From Sporisorium sorghi (Eukaryota; Basidiomycota; Ustilaginomycetes; Ustilaginales; Ustilaginaceae): a stretch of 64,000 nucleotides of DNA. The stretch spans positions 1 to 64,000 of the forward strand of contig JALCCG010000075.1 in the NCBI GenBank assembly GCA_023212695.1, in the 5' to 3' direction. Under the pieces are notes generated by a model that was given only the letters and a program-made list of their open reading frames with translations, was not told the origin of the DNA and made no database searches. Below, piece after piece: positions 48,734-53,831 of the stretch. A program made the translations under genes and the position numbers. Each line of letters opens with the position of its first letter. Positions within the stretch are counted from its first letter, which is position 1.

Positions 48734-50756
48734 ATGGTCGCCGAAATCGGTCAGAAAGAGGTCGAGATCCAGCCCGGATATGTTGGTAAGTACAGCTCCG
48801 AATACCGCCATCTCTAGTGATGCCGCTGCGATGCTCAGCGGCCTTGCAGCTGTCCATCAGACCGCGAAGCAGCATCCCAGCAGCAGACGACGTGCAAACA
48901 GAAGCACAGAATCACTGACAGACATATGACCTGCCTCTTCCAATTCGACACTCTGACACTCTGCAGGCAACCTGACGCCGGAACAGGAAGAAAAGCTGCA
49001 GGAGCTCTGGCTCAAGTTCTTTGAAGTCTGCGAAAACGCTTCTGACGATGACGACACCAACGTCACGGCCAAAAGCAACGGTGGCGATCTCGGCGGCTGG
49101 GACGAGAAAAAGTCCGGGCCAGACGGCGCAGGCATCCCCAAGGACGACAAGGCCAAGGACGAGCTCAAGGCGCAAGAGGAGCAGGCGGCGCTCGACGAGC
49201 TCCTCCAGACCTACGGGCCCTCGGCGCTACGCAACACGTTCTGGAAGTTTGTCAAGATGGACAACCCGGACACGGATGTATTGCGCTTCCTGCGTGCACG
49301 CAAGTGGGACGTCTCGCGTGCCTTTGCCATGATGGCCGGGTGCATGAAGTGGCGTCTGGACAACAACGTCGAGGAGCTTGCCGAGAACGGTGACTTGGGC
49401 AATGCGAGCATCGAAAAGTTCCTCGACCAGCAGCGCAGTGGCAAGACGTATGCCATGGGAACCACGGACAACGAGATGCCCATCGCCTACATTCACGTCA
49501 AGAAGCACTTGACGTGGGGACAGCCGGGTGCTTCGATGTCCAAGTACGTCATCTACGCCATGGAGTCGTTCCGCCTGCTGATGCAGCCTCCCAATGACAA
49601 GGTGGTGCTCCTGTTCGACTTGACCGGATTCGGCTTGAAGAACATGGACTGGAACTGCATCCTGTTCATCGTCAAGTGCCTCGAGGCCTACTATCCCGAG
49701 TCGCTCGGCACGCTCTACATCCACAATGCACCGTGGATCTTTTCGGGCATCTGGAAGCTGCTCGGCCCCATGCTCGACCCCGTGGTGCGCAGCAAGGTCA
49801 AATTCACCAAGAAGCCCGCCGACCTCGATCTCGTGCCCAAGGAGCGCCTGCTTTCCAACATGGGCGGCGACAACGTCAACGAGTTCGAGTTCGTCGAGCC
49901 CAAGGAGGGCGAGAACGACCAGACCAAGGACGAGGAGGGCAAGAAGCGCACGTGGAACAACTACATGTCGGTCGCCAAGCAGTACGAGCAGGTGACGCGC
50001 AAGTGGTGTGAGACCAAAGGCAAGGACAAGGACGTTGTTAAGCGGCGCGACTTGCTCGTCAAGAAGCTGCGTGTGGCGCAGTTCGAGCACGAGCCGTACT
50101 TCCGCGGCAAGACGGTCTACCACCGCGACGGCACGATCGATGGTCAGGGCATTGTGACGTGGAACTACAAGCAGAAGGACGGCGAGATCATCCGCCATGT
50201 CGTCGGTCGCAGGTCGTGTGTCGCCACACTCAAGAAGGAGATCGCCGAGATTGAGGGTGGTGCGGATCCGGAAGAGGTGGAGAAGCGCATCGGTGCGAAT
50301 GCCGACAAGCAGGCCAGTGAGCAGGATAGCTCAGCCGGTGCTGCTGCGGGTGCGGGTGCTGCTGCCGCTGGTGGTGCCGCAGCCGCAACAGCCGCTGCGG
50401 TTGCTGCCGACGACGACGACGAGGATCAGGCCTTCCACGAGGCACCTGTCGCCTCGCCAGCAGCGACAAAGGAGGCTCTCGACGTCAACACCGTCAAAGT
50501 CATCTCGCACGACGAACAGGCCGCCAAGGAGGCCTCACCTGTTGCGAATGGCAACGCCAAGGCTAACGGCAACGGCGACGCGGCAGGTCACAAACAAGCC
50601 ACCAGCGAGGCCGACTCGGAAAAGACGGCTGCCACCACCGACTACAAGACCGAAGACGCCTCGGCAGACCGCCACAGCATGAAGAAGAGCGGAAGCATCA
50701 AGTCGATCAAGTCGTCTGGCATGGCCAAGCTCAAGTCGGTCCTTAACAAGGCCTGA
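48734..50756 (+). CDS. Sec14-like CRAL-TRIO lipid-transfer protein (two exons)
   Basis: Exon 1 is 48734-48785 and exon 2 is 48967-50756, joined across a 181-base GTAAGT...CTGCAG intron; 613 residues. A charged N-terminal stretch is followed by the CRAL-TRIO N domain at about 85-150 (DNPDTDVLRFLRARKWDVSR) and the lipid-binding domain at about 165-305 (PIAYIHVKKHL, VVLLFDLTGFGLKNMDW, YYPESLGTLYIHNAPWIFSG). A conserved extension follows (EPYFRGKTVYHRDGTIDGQG), then an Ala/Asp-rich tail ending in a basic Ser/Lys-rich segment. It resembles yeast Csr1/Sfh2, a phosphatidylinositol-transfer protein, more than Sec14 itself, judging from the FWKFVKMDNPDT start. The first exon encodes only 17 residues. 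Confidence 0.92.
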
Positions 50757-51593
50757 TTGCAACACACTCCGGATGCGAACAATTGCCCGCTCTGTAGCTC
50801 AGCTTTCTCTTTAATGTGTACGTTTCTCCTGCTCCAGTAGTTGTTGAATCTTCAGATACCTTGCTCTTGTTGCTGTATATCGCTAGTGTGTGGGACGCTC
50901 TCTGTTTCGGCAGCGAAGCAGCGACACCTTGGTATTCCTAGGGCGATGATTGGCTGTGCGGTGAGAGGGTGACCAAGCACGTTATCGGCTGCAGCGGCCT
51001 CTCACTGGCAAGGTCGTGGTTCAGAGATAGGCGCCACAGACCGACGGTTGAGCGATGTTTTGTGTGGGGGCAGCTCTAATGAGGGCCTCGAGATTGGTTG
51101 GCGTGAGCACGGCTGCGGTTGCTATCACCGTGAGGGTCCTCGAATTTCAATTGACTCGCCTCTAATTCGTCTGGCCGTCGCCCGCCCGTGCGGGTCTGCT
51201 AATTTTGGCCTTGTTTGACAGCCTCGGAACGCTTCAACGCCGTCTCCTTCTATCTATCACGAACTTCGCTTCCTGCGGTTATCGCTACGGCAGTAAAGAG
51301 GGTATGGCATGACGGCGAAGCCTCCTCGACCAGCAGGGTCGTCTTGGCCGACCTTCCTGGTCAGACCAAGCGCTTTTCCTCGACATGCAAGACTGCTTCC
51401 TCAACGCGCAAAGAGGCTTCCACAGAGCAGGAGTGGTCTCCCGAACGGAATGGCAGCAAGAGAGGATCCTGTCGCTCGACAGCCCCTCTCGGCGCCTTCA
51501 AAAAGGTTCGTAGCTCCTTCTAAGCATGCCTATCGACTACAACGCCTTCATCGTGCTTTGTTTCCATCAGTGTCCAACACAAGCCTAGACAAG
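50757..51593. promoter_or_regulatory. Upstream region of the HIT-CobW gene
   Basis: 837 bases. The HIT-CobW frame is open upstream to an ATG at 51309, which would add 95 residues rich in Arg, Pro and Ser, almost without acidic residues. The part before 51309 shows nothing notable. Confidence 0.5.
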
Positions 51594-53831
51594 ATGGCGC
51601 CCATCGCAGTCTCTCCAAAAGCAGCTCCTGCTGTTCCTGCCGGCAAATCCAGCATCAGAAAGGCAGCAAATGTCGAGCAAGTCAAGTTTGCATCGTTCGA
51701 TGTGACGGATCAGGTATTCTACCGCTCGGCAGACGCATCCTGCTGTGCCATCGTCAATCTCAAGCCCATCGTCCCCGGCCACGTCTTGGTCATCCCCACC
51801 ACGCCCTACCACAGGCTTTCTGAAGTGCCAGCACACATCATCGCCTCCCTCTTCCAAAGCGTCCAAGGGATCGCGAAGGGACTCGAGAAGGTGTTTGAGG
51901 CTGATGCGCTGACCGTCAGTGTTCAGGATGGCGAGGCTGCGGGCCAGACGGTACCTCATCTGCATGTGCATATTCTGCCTCGAAAGGCGGGCGATATCAC
52001 GCCGAAAGATCTGGTGTACGTGCATTTGGAGCAGTGGGGGTTTGACATCAAGAAGCTGCTCAACAAGGATACGGAGGTCTGGGTTGACGCGGGCGAGGAT
52101 AGAAGGCCGAGATCGAAGCCAGAGATGCGCAAGGAAGCCGAGTTCCTGAGCTCGTTCTTCGGCCTCGATGGTACTTTTGACGCTCAACAGCTCGAGATGC
52201 TGCAGTCAAAGTCGAGCAAGCGGGCGTTGGATGCCTCTGCGCCTGCCAAGCAGAAGCGCTCGCGCGTAGACCGACTCCCCGTCACACTCCTCAGCGGCTT
52301 CTTGGGAGCCGGCAAGACGACGCTGCTGGAACACATTCTCACCTCCAAGGACCACGGACTCCGTGTCGCCGTCGTGGTCAACGACATGGGTGCGCTCAAC
52401 ATCGACGCGTCGCTGCTCTCCAACCACCGCGTCACGCAGGCCGAGGAGAAGGTGGTGCAGATGCAAAACGGCTGCATCTGCTGCACACTTCGCGGGGATT
52501 TGCTCGAGGAAGTTGCCGCGCTCGCCGAGAATCGCGAAATCGACTACCTGCTGATCGAGAGCACGGGCATCTCGGAACCCATGCAGGTGGCCGAGACGTT
52601 TTCGGAGGAGTTTGCGGACATGTACACGCAGATGGCGGACGAGCTGGAGGACGAGATCCGTGCGGATCCGCAGAAGCGCGAGGAGCATGCCAAAGTGGCT
52701 AAGATTCTGAAGCAGGGTGGTCTGCCGGCGGTGGCGCGGCTCGACACGTGCGTCACTGTGGTCGATGCGGTGAACCTGTTCAACGACTACAACACGACCG
52801 ATTTCTTGGTCGACCGCCACAAGGACGACCACGATGTGCCCGAGGAGGACGACCGCAACATCAGCGACCTCCAAACGGACCAGCTCGAGTTCGCCAACGT
52901 CATCCTGATCAACAAGTGCGACCTGGTGAGCAAGGACGAGGTCGAGCGCATCCGTGCGTTCATCAAACTGCTCAACCCGGACGCCAAGATCATCCCGACG
53001 ACTCGAAGCCGTATCGACCTCAAGGAGATACTCAACACGAACCTGTTCAGCTACGAAAAGGCGGCGCTGGGCGCGGGCTGGCTCAAGAGCCTCAACGAGG
53101 AGATCAAGCCCGAGACGGAAGAGTACGGCATCGGCAGCTTTGTTTACCGGGCGCGCAGGCCGTTCCACACTGCGAGATTGTGGGAAACGATCCGCGAGGT
53201 GTTTGTCGTCATCCAGAGCGAGTACATCGACGACGGCGAAGACGAGGACGAGGACGAAACCGTGGCTAGCGAGGACGAAGCAGACGAGGACGACAGCATG
53301 GAGGTGGACCAAGAAGACGGTGTTGAAGCCCAACCCCAGCTCAACCCTCAAGCACGACTGGAAGCCAAAAACGCCAGCGAGACCTTCGCACCTCTCCTTC
53401 GCTCCAAGGGCTTCGTTTGGCTCGCGACCCGCCCACTCATGTTTGGCGAGTGGTCACAGGCGGGCATCATGCTGACGCTCCAAGGCGGCGCGCGATGGCG
53501 CTGCGAGCTGGACGAAGAAATGTGGCCTCAGGACAAAGAGATTGTCGAGGCGATCAAGAAGGACTTCGTCGCGCCTTGGGGTGATAGAAGACAGGAGATT
53601 GTGCTGATTGGCAAGAACATGCGCGAGGGTGCTGAAGAGAAGCTTCGGGCTGCGCTCGACAGCTGCTTGCTGACGGATGCAGAGATGCAGCAGTGGGAGG
53701 AGATTATGAAGGATTCAAGCCTCGGGGGTATGAAAGAGAAAGAGGCCAGGCTGCAGGAGATCTTTGAGGATGGGTTCGAGGACTGGCCGGACCACGAAGA
53801 TCCCGAGGCTCATGAGGGTCACAACCACTAG
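51594..53831 (+). CDS. HIT (Fhit-type) domain fused to a COG0523/CobW GTPase
   Basis: 745 residues from ATG 51594, one uninterrupted frame. Residues about 28-190 form a HIT domain of Fhit type: PGHVLVIPTTPYHRL, GQTVPHLHVHILPRKAGD with the histidine triad at 122/124/126, and a Fhit-like end. Fhit hydrolyses diadenosine tri- and tetraphosphates. After a Ser/Lys-rich linker a complete COG0523 G3E GTPase begins at about 228: Walker A GFLGAGKTT (235-243), the CxCC metal motif in NGCICCTLRGDL (294-297), ESTGISEP and NKCDL. A His/Asp/Glu-rich insert follows, then a CobW C-terminal domain (GFVWLATRPLMFGEWSQAG, GDRRQEIVLIG) and a His-rich end (HEDPEAHEGHNH). COG0523 members are metallochaperone GTPases, often for zinc; the C-terminal motif resembles the bacterial YciC/ZigA branch. 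An upstream ATG at 51309 would add a basic leader. Confidence 0.92.
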   Translation: MAPIAVSPKAAPAVPAGKSSIRKAANVEQVKFASFDVTDQVFYRSADASCCAIVNLKPIVPGHVLVIPTTPYHRLSEVPAHIIASLFQSVQGIAKGLEKVFEADALTVSVQDGEAAGQTVPHLHVHILPRKAGDITPKDLVYVHLEQWGFDIKKLLNKDTEVWVDAGEDRRPRSKPEMRKEAEFLSSFFGLDGTFDAQQLEMLQSKSSKRALDASAPAKQKRSRVDRLPVTLLSGFLGAGKTTLLEHILTSKDHGLRVAVVVNDMGALNIDASLLSNHRVTQAEEKVVQMQNGCICCTLRGDLLEEVAALAENREIDYLLIESTGISEPMQVAETFSEEFADMYTQMADELEDEIRADPQKREEHAKVAKILKQGGLPAVARLDTCVTVVDAVNLFNDYNTTDFLVDRHKDDHDVPEEDDRNISDLQTDQLEFANVILINKCDLVSKDEVERIRAFIKLLNPDAKIIPTTRSRIDLKEILNTNLFSYEKAALGAGWLKSLNEEIKPETEEYGIGSFVYRARRPFHTARLWETIREVFVVIQSEYIDDGEDEDEDETVASEDEADEDDSMEVDQEDGVEAQPQLNPQARLEAKNASETFAPLLRSKGFVWLATRPLMFGEWSQAGIMLTLQGGARWRCELDEEMWPQDKEIVEAIKKDFVAPWGDRRQEIVLIGKNMREGAEEKLRAALDSCLLTDAEMQQWEEIMKDSSLGGMKEKEARLQEIFEDGFEDWPDHEDPEAHEGHNH

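Follow-up and report, generated by a model that had tools for sequence, protein, structure and literature searches.

Why would a smut fungus carry its Fhit-type hydrolase and its zinc-chaperone-like GTPase as one chain? The question is raised by a gene of Sporisorium sorghi that lies toward the end of the window analyzed here, the first 64,000 nucleotides of contig JALCCG010000075.1 (GenBank assembly GCA_023212695.1, forward strand). An earlier note, made from these letters alone, had claimed that a single frame encodes a histidine triad (HIT) domain of the Fhit type followed by a complete COG0523/CobW GTPase, that model fungi and animals make the halves separately, and, as an inference, that their link suggests a coupling of alarmone turnover to metal delivery. 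We confirm that a complete Fhit-type HIT protein and a complete COG0523 GTPase are fused in one frame, and find that this is a real, conserved architecture joining two already known families. That alarmone turnover and metal delivery may be coupled is a plausible idea, to which the analysis gives a sharper form.

The frame consists of 745 open codons and a stop, and Pfam calls the domains of both halves far above cut-off: HIT (E 8.5e-25), cobW (E 4.4e-50, starting at residue 229 and matched in two stretches), and CobW_C (E 1.5e-16). The HIT domain is of the Fhit type, as judged from the GQTVxHxHxHxLPRxxxD context around the HxHxH triad and from its nearest sequences and structures, which are those of Fhit. 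The second half has every expected element of a COG0523 protein, namely Walker A, GCxCC, a Walker B read as ESTG (residues 322–325), NKxD, RxK, and CobW_C, and the triad, Walker A, CICC, and NKCD motifs lie at the residues that the earlier note had given (Table 1). All 32 aligned fusion rows match the patterns set up for the HIT triad, Walker A, GCxCC, NKxD (with N or S in first place), and LRSKGF. Among 14 named relatives of full length, 12 have their first residues, MAP, where the ATG at 51594 lies; the other two, Testicularia (P0017) and Malassezia cuniculi (P0024), start upstream and downstream of it, respectively. The same frame is open further 5′, up to an ATG at 51309, and the stretch 51309–51593 was set aside as a part of the protein because of those 12 relatives. 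One segment of it (VAPSKHAYRLQRLHRALF) can be aligned to the sequence that precedes the ATG corresponding to 51594 in another smut record, P0133 (score 79, equaled by 0 of 500 shuffles). The stretch might encode an Arg-rich extension of the N-terminus, begun at an upstream start, or it might simply be a conserved 5′ untranslated region.

The joined form occurs in Ustilaginales, in Violaceomyces, and in Malassezia. Among the best 120 of 7980 matches to the whole protein, which are the ones listed, 32 have both HIT and cobW. Because this search catches only sequences sharing exact words, a more distant fusion may exist elsewhere. Fusion bearers include the smuts Sporisorium scitamineum, S. reilianum, S. 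graminicola, Mycosarcoma maydis (UMAG_12104), Ustilago trichophora, U. loliicola, U. bromivora, Melanopsichium, Moesziomyces, Kalmanozyma, and Testicularia, and beyond these Violaceomyces, Malassezia sp. CBS 17886, and M. cuniculi. The closest relatives among the matches listed are from Sporisorium (88–90% identity), and the Malassezia-type rows (P0021–P0032) have the same full-length layout at 52–58% identity. The same listing holds the GTPase alone from Tilletia, Tilletiopsis, Sympodiomycopsis, rusts, Sporobolomyces, and many ascomycetes, and stand-alone Fhits (120 listed of 909) come from Tilletia, Tilletiopsis, Exobasidium, Sympodiomycopsis, rusts, Wallemia, and mushrooms. Both halves are made as separate proteins in Tilletia, Tilletiopsis, Sympodiomycopsis, and rusts, in line with what the earlier note had said of model fungi. 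When the HIT part was searched against proteins of ~410–1300 residues, 553 candidates yielded 33 matches; 30 of these have both domains, one (P0122) has HIT and CobW_C, and two are other proteins. P0122 is labeled Cichorium endivia, is Moesziomyces-like and frame-broken, and is likely fungal contamination of a plant genome. In the literature searched, where papers on the CobW of Ustilago maydis were judged by title, we found no description of this Fhit-zinc-chaperone fusion; one survey of GTP-binding structures names the HIT domain and CobW together in its available part, but for different proteins.

An assembly or annotation artefact might be suspected, given the bacterial-looking contigs in this assembly (below) and a smut genome for which the Fhit and GTPase parts are filed separately, with frame breaks (P0133 and P0119). 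However, the same full-length layout recurs in independent genomes of many genera, which makes chance, mis-assembly, and gene-model error very unlikely and in effect refutes such an origin, and the guanine-plus-cytosine (GC) content of the gene region (57–59%) is that of the window (58.6%); we give an artefact practically no chance. P0133 and P0119 are both listed with a 55,153-base contig, and with their internal frame breaks they look like a low-quality assembly or a decayed copy.

Does the fungus also keep the two genes singly? The assembly was searched exon by exon, so that a missed gene is possible. It has seven HIT loci, including that of the window, and, besides the window gene, four COG0523 loci, on contigs C1, C36, C123, and C331. 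The stretches that hold these COG0523 loci, and those that hold the HIT loci of C1 and C441, have 43–50% GC, and the fungal-like HIT loci 54–60%. Genes that look bacterial by eye lie on several of the low-GC contigs (ArsR-like on C1, MoeA-MobB-type on C189, Ffh on C331). Bacterial contigs thus seem to be present in the assembly, a call made from GC and from gene content by eye. The HIT loci of the fungal-like contigs C11, C118, C64, and C442 look by eye like HINT-type and aprataxin-type proteins, not Fhit, and a search with the fusion did not pick up any of them. On the fungal-like contigs of this assembly, the exon-by-exon search gave no further gene of Fhit type or of COG0523. The fusion seems to be the fungus’s only Fhit and only COG0523 gene in this assembly, and the view that it replaced both single genes in this genome is supported, not proved. 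A GTP cyclohydrolase I gene lies on the fungal-like contig C171 (57% GC). As for the low-GC contigs (C1, C36, C123, C189, C331, C426, and C441; loci L001, L004, L008–L011, L014, L015, and L024), their bacterial-looking genes are HinT, ArsR-like, MoeA-MobB-type, Ffh, COG0523, and FolE, and the COG0523 genes of C1 and C123 look ZigA/ZagA-like, with a profile score behind the call for C123.

Within COG0523, the GTPase half appears nearest to the zinc-starvation chaperones ZigA, ZagA, and MchC. The NCBIfam ZigA profile scores 448.9 bits on the fusion and the next family 116.7, a lead of ~330 bits. Three COG0523 proteins of Aspergillus fumigatus have been studied, and in the available part of that report ZigA and ZagA are far nearer to MchC than to MchA, while MchA, not MchC, is closest to Zng1 (PMC12584730). 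The same source describes MchC as having an acidic domain, a His-rich end, and a link to GTP cyclohydrolase I, and mchC as a direct target of ZafA that rises ~2,600-fold without zinc. The C-terminal 40 residues of the fusion contain 4 His, so a “His-rich” end is modest here.

The closest solved structures by sequence are Fhit (9uch, 1fhi) for the first part and YjiA for the second. We used an AlphaFold2 (AF2) model built on the 75-row alignment A2, with a mean predicted local distance difference test (pLDDT) score of 79.1 and a predicted template modeling (pTM) score of 0.64, in which the Fhit core is well predicted and the GTPase part mostly good. A model on a 32-row alignment was poor (pLDDT 60.3, pTM 0.38) and was replaced by this one. 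Confidence is low at residues 1–24, at 210–223, and in the acidic stretch 544–578. Foldseek ranked YjiA first (1nij, E 1.9e-13) and then Fhit (7p8p; 3fit with TMt 0.93 and 4fit with TMt 0.92).

How the halves were joined can be approached from the ends of the Fhit part. A motif near R[ST]xxxMxxEAx[WF]L occurs in 93 of 119 stand-alone fungal Fhits, at a median of 10 residues before the C-terminus (range 4–29), and this C-terminal helix motif is kept in all 32 fusions. The distance from it to the LPVT of the GTPase is 34–43 residues in Ustilaginales and close rows (P0001–P0018, P0020) and 9–22 in Malassezia-type rows (P0021–P0032, P0077). Because the complete Fhit end is followed by the GTPase’s LPVT, two whole proteins are joined. 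At the other end, the leader has MAP in 26 of 31 fusions, 41 of 85 stand-alone CobW proteins, and 1 of 106 stand-alone Fhits; the narrower MAPx[AV][VIT] is in 24/31, 5/85, and 0/106, respectively, counts of rows related by descent for which Fisher values overstate. Four of the five CobW proteins with the narrower leader read MAPIAV, MAPVAV, MAPVAI, or MAPIAI. The GTPase-like leader would be explained simply if Fhit had been inserted behind the start codon of the GTPase gene, with the 5′ end of that gene retained; we take this as a lead.

The linker of the Ustilaginales fusions has the layout of a classical-type bipartite nuclear localization signal (NLS), that is, two basic residues, about ten spacer residues, and then a basic cluster. 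A strict KR-x10-KRxR is found in 17/17 fusions of the Ustilaginales clade (P0001–P0017, with P0007, P0008, P0010, P0011, and P0013 placed there by the HIT tree), the ten spacer residues being variable, and in 0/87 CobW proteins and 0/119 Fhits. By chance it arose in 3 of 20,000 shuffled linkers and in 1 of 5,000 whole-protein shuffles. The Fhit end also bears on the possibility that the locus gives two products, with an internal start, cleavage, or a second promoter also yielding a separate zinc chaperone. Met178, in the C-terminal helix, is invariant in alignment A1 and in Malassezia-type rows lies ~16–29 residues ahead of the GTPase part; however, this Met belongs to the Fhit family motif, and the linker has no conserved Met (any Met in 7 of 32 rows), so that we think a second product quite improbable.

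Upstream of the gene we find candidate ZafA-core sites, which are suggestive of control by zinc. The binding sequence of ZafA is DYYVYCARGGTVYYY (PMC6070888, in its available part), and a U. maydis sequence is included in an alignment of Zap1/ZafA proteins (PMC2837044, likewise). The 837 bases upstream of the fused gene contain three CAAGGT and one CAGGGT. Among control windows of 837 bases, taken in 10-base steps clear of the region, none has four such sites and 1.3% have three CAAGGT. Eight sites in the 64 kb have at most two mismatches to the full ZR consensus, and two of these are upstream of the fused gene. About 1.3% of all hexamer pairs occur at least three times in the same upstream stretch, so the cluster is suggestive only. 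The strict zinc-responsive element (ZRE) palindrome ACCTTNAAGGT is absent from the window; the looser ZRE pattern ACCNTNANGGT has one match, at 51127, and the remaining looser patterns gave nothing specific to the fused gene. The upstream neighbor (49257–50756, + strand) is an intronless open reading frame of 499 aa that by eye resembles Sec14/CRAL-TRIO lipid-transfer proteins.

Table 1. Position of the fused gene, its parts, and candidate upstream sites in the window
Feature	Positions	Strand	Remarks
Candidate ZafA core CAAGGT	50854..50868	-	3 mismatches to 15-bp ZR consensus
Candidate ZafA core CAAGGT	50922..50936	-	2 mismatches to ZR consensus
Candidate ZafA core CAAGGT	51004..51018	+	3 mismatches to ZR consensus
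Candidate ZafA core CAGGGT	51329..51343	+	2 mismatches to ZR consensus
Fused Fhit-COG0523 gene	51594..53831	+	745 aa, intronless coding sequence, stop at end; relatives align over full length
N-terminal leader MAPIAVSPKAAPAVPAGK...	51594..51674	+	closer to leaders of stand-alone COG0523 proteins than to Fhit
HIT domain, Fhit type, residues 38-132	51705..51989	+	Pfam; sequence and Foldseek matches to Fhit structures
Histidine triad HLHVH, residues 122-126	51957..51971	+	H122, H124, H126 invariant in alignment A1 of relatives
Fhit C-terminal helix motif RSKPEMRKEAEFL, residues 173-185	52110..52148	+	natural end region of stand-alone fungal Fhit
Linker, residues 186-227	52149..52274	+	pLDDT <50 at 210-223; length varies among fusions
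Predicted bipartite NLS KR-x10-KRSR, residues 209-224	52218..52265	+	pattern search
Walker A GFLGAGKT, residues 235-242	52296..52319	+	alignment and pattern
Metal motif CICC (CxCC), residues 294-297	52473..52484	+	alignment and pattern
Guanine-specificity motif NKCD, residues 440-443	52911..52922	+	translation and pattern
Acidic insert between GTPase and C-terminal domain	53226..53321	+	as described for MchC
CobW C-terminal domain, residues 592-692, R-x-K motif (LRSKGF)	53367..53669	+	Pfam, alignment
His-bearing C-terminus DHEDPEAHEGHNH	53790..53828	+	translation and pattern

What could such a chain do? We propose that one old fusion, split in some lineages, yielded a zinc-starvation chaperone with its own hydrolase for diadenosine triphosphate and tetraphosphate (Ap3A and Ap4A), a reading whose chances of being right or wrong we put about equal and in which the coupling of the two functions is inferred. 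In this chain, a complete Fhit with intact active-site motifs would separate the leader of a ZagA/MchC-type chaperone from its body. Zinc shortage would induce the gene through a Zap1/ZafA-type factor, and the GTPase half would carry out GTP-gated transfer of zinc to client proteins, for example GTP cyclohydrolase I. Fhit would accompany it in a constant 1:1 ratio, in Ustilaginales also into the nucleus. There and then it would clear the Ap3A and Ap4A that this stress produces, which may keep the GTP supply from falling, for example via IMPDH. Published excerpts report that Aph1 of Schizosaccharomyces pombe cleaves Ap4A and that binding of Ap4A to IMPDH appears conserved in eukaryotes; because GTP feeds both chaperone and client, GTP supply is a possible reason for the link. 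The earlier note had named zinc limitation or DNA stress as the setting. The affinity to ZigA, ZagA, and MchC and the upstream ZafA cores speak for the former, and the latter, for which there is only the predicted nuclear signal, did not gain ground.

Several observations weigh against this proposal. The ZigA score is below the family cut-off of 600, as are those of a stand-alone fungal protein (P0038, 443.3) and of the bacterial locus L008 (561.2). In the AF2 model, residues 261–300, which carry the CxCC motif, reach only pLDDT 57–61, and the YjiA match is poor overall (TMt 0.49, root-mean-square deviation 10.3 over both its domains). None of the 15 remaining fusion rows has the strict NLS pattern, and a looser bipartite form occurs not only in 17/17 Ustilaginales fusions but also in 1/15 other fusions, 9/87 CobW proteins, and 2/119 Fhits. 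The MAP leader may partly reflect start-codon context. No exact match to the ZR consensus was found for the ZafA cores upstream, which are short sites identified after the fact. Since ZNG1 is described as near-universal in eukaryotes (PMC10642216, in part), the lack of a second COG0523 gene may mean that the assembly is incomplete. Finally, synthesis of Ap4A by some tRNA synthetases is reported, in excerpt, to be stimulated by zinc, so that zinc shortage might lower Ap4A and weaken the proposed reason for the link.

The trees, too, belong on this side. In the HIT tree a clade of fusions only is rejected (p value of the approximately unbiased test, p-AU, 1.8e-7), because stand-alone Fhits (P0125–P0132) fall among the fusions; these are the Malassezia-type P0128–P0132, including M. 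yamatoensis, and the smut-like P0125–P0127. The nesting implies that some lineages can do without the physical link, unless these records are splits made by gene models or introns, and the free CobW tree separates the Malassezia from the Ustilaginales fusions. On the other hand, one clade of HIT parts that includes the nested stand-alone copies is allowed (p-AU 0.41), as is one clade of CobW parts (p-AU 0.24, quick tree). The simplest account, supported but not proved, is a single old fusion before Ustilaginomycetes and Malassezia parted, followed by later splits; two separate origins of the fusion would also fit the trees. The nested lone Fhits may be either true fissions or introns and gene-model breaks. 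A split gene, which the earlier note considered unlikely, is so for this genome, but some Malassezia-type and smut-like records do have a lone Fhit nested in the clade. Two of these, P0128 and P0129, have conserved N-terminal stretches ending in RTFATM that by eye resemble mitochondrial presequences, before a second in-frame Met.

The same nested Fhits, in Malassezia-type rows, would suit a passenger fusion, a historical accident in which two independent enzymes are co-expressed with no functional coupling. It would also suit this view that the linker is of low confidence in the model at residues 210–223 and varies in length from 9 to 43 residues, and that no contact between the halves can be read from the model values. 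However, the tested catalytic motifs of both halves are kept in 32/32 rows, and the Ustilaginales clade has 17 intact fusion rows versus 3 stand-alone Fhit rows; motif retention in both halves would also be expected if both enzymes were simply needed. We regard a passenger as a serious possibility, one that we nonetheless tend to doubt. Were it true, the fusion would still indicate that the two enzymes are expressed together, and it would still serve as a character of the smut and Malassezia lineages.

By analogy with Bacillus subtilis, where ZagA is activated by the alarmone ZTP according to an excerpt of PMC10882993, the Fhit half might instead be mainly a sensor whose bound dinucleotide alters zinc delivery. 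Tumor suppression by human FHIT is reported to need binding of Ap3A rather than its hydrolysis (PMC7705103, in part), which would agree with a ligand switch. His122, His124, and His126 are invariant, however, and hydrolysis is probably kept, so that a mainly sensing role seems rather improbable. A wider version, a bifunctional switch induced by zinc starvation and nuclear in smuts, in which Fhit reads or removes Ap3A/Ap4A and thereby gates the hand-over of zinc by the ZagA/MchC half, we hold to be unlikely. If it were true, it would be the eukaryotic counterpart, with another nucleotide, of the Bacillus link between ZTP and ZagA, and Fhit, whose cellular role is unsettled, would gain a direct partner pathway in zinc and folate/GTP supply. 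A review, in the part available, calls the cellular action of Ap3A binding by Fhit elusive, and natural fusions, such as the earlier NitFhit, are among the few clues to its partners. Returning to the chaperone with its own hydrolase, the conserved Fhit and ZagA/MchC-type chain points to a definite partner pathway that can be put to the test in a fungus amenable to genetics, and possibly to a eukaryotic parallel to the bacterial link between nucleotide alarmones and zinc delivery.

Compared with known systems, the fusion shares the COG0523 superfamily with ZNG1. Unlike ZNG1, which we take to be the eukaryotic COG0523 protein that serves methionine aminopeptidase 1 through a CPELVP-type N-terminal client motif, it has this motif in 0 of 32 fusion rows by pattern search. 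It is more like ZagA (YciC), ZigA, and MchC in its best profile (ZigA, below the family cut-off) and in its Walker A, CxCC, NKCD, and RxK motifs, and like MchC, as described in the available part of PMC12584730, it has an acidic domain in the C-terminal half and a His-bearing end. Those chaperones are stand-alone proteins, whereas here a whole Fhit is N-terminal. The Fhit half resembles the Fhit/Aph1/Hnt2 hydrolases in fold, histidine triad, Q111, and C-terminal helix motif, and differs from the 120 listed stand-alone Fhits (120–233 residues) in being fused before a GTPase and in having a leader that is rare among Fhits. Like the invertebrate NitFhit (PDB 1ems), it is a Fhit within a natural two-enzyme chain; in NitFhit, however, Fhit is joined to a nitrilase and is matched at the C-terminal side (chain residues 292–408), whereas here the partner is a zinc chaperone and Fhit comes first.

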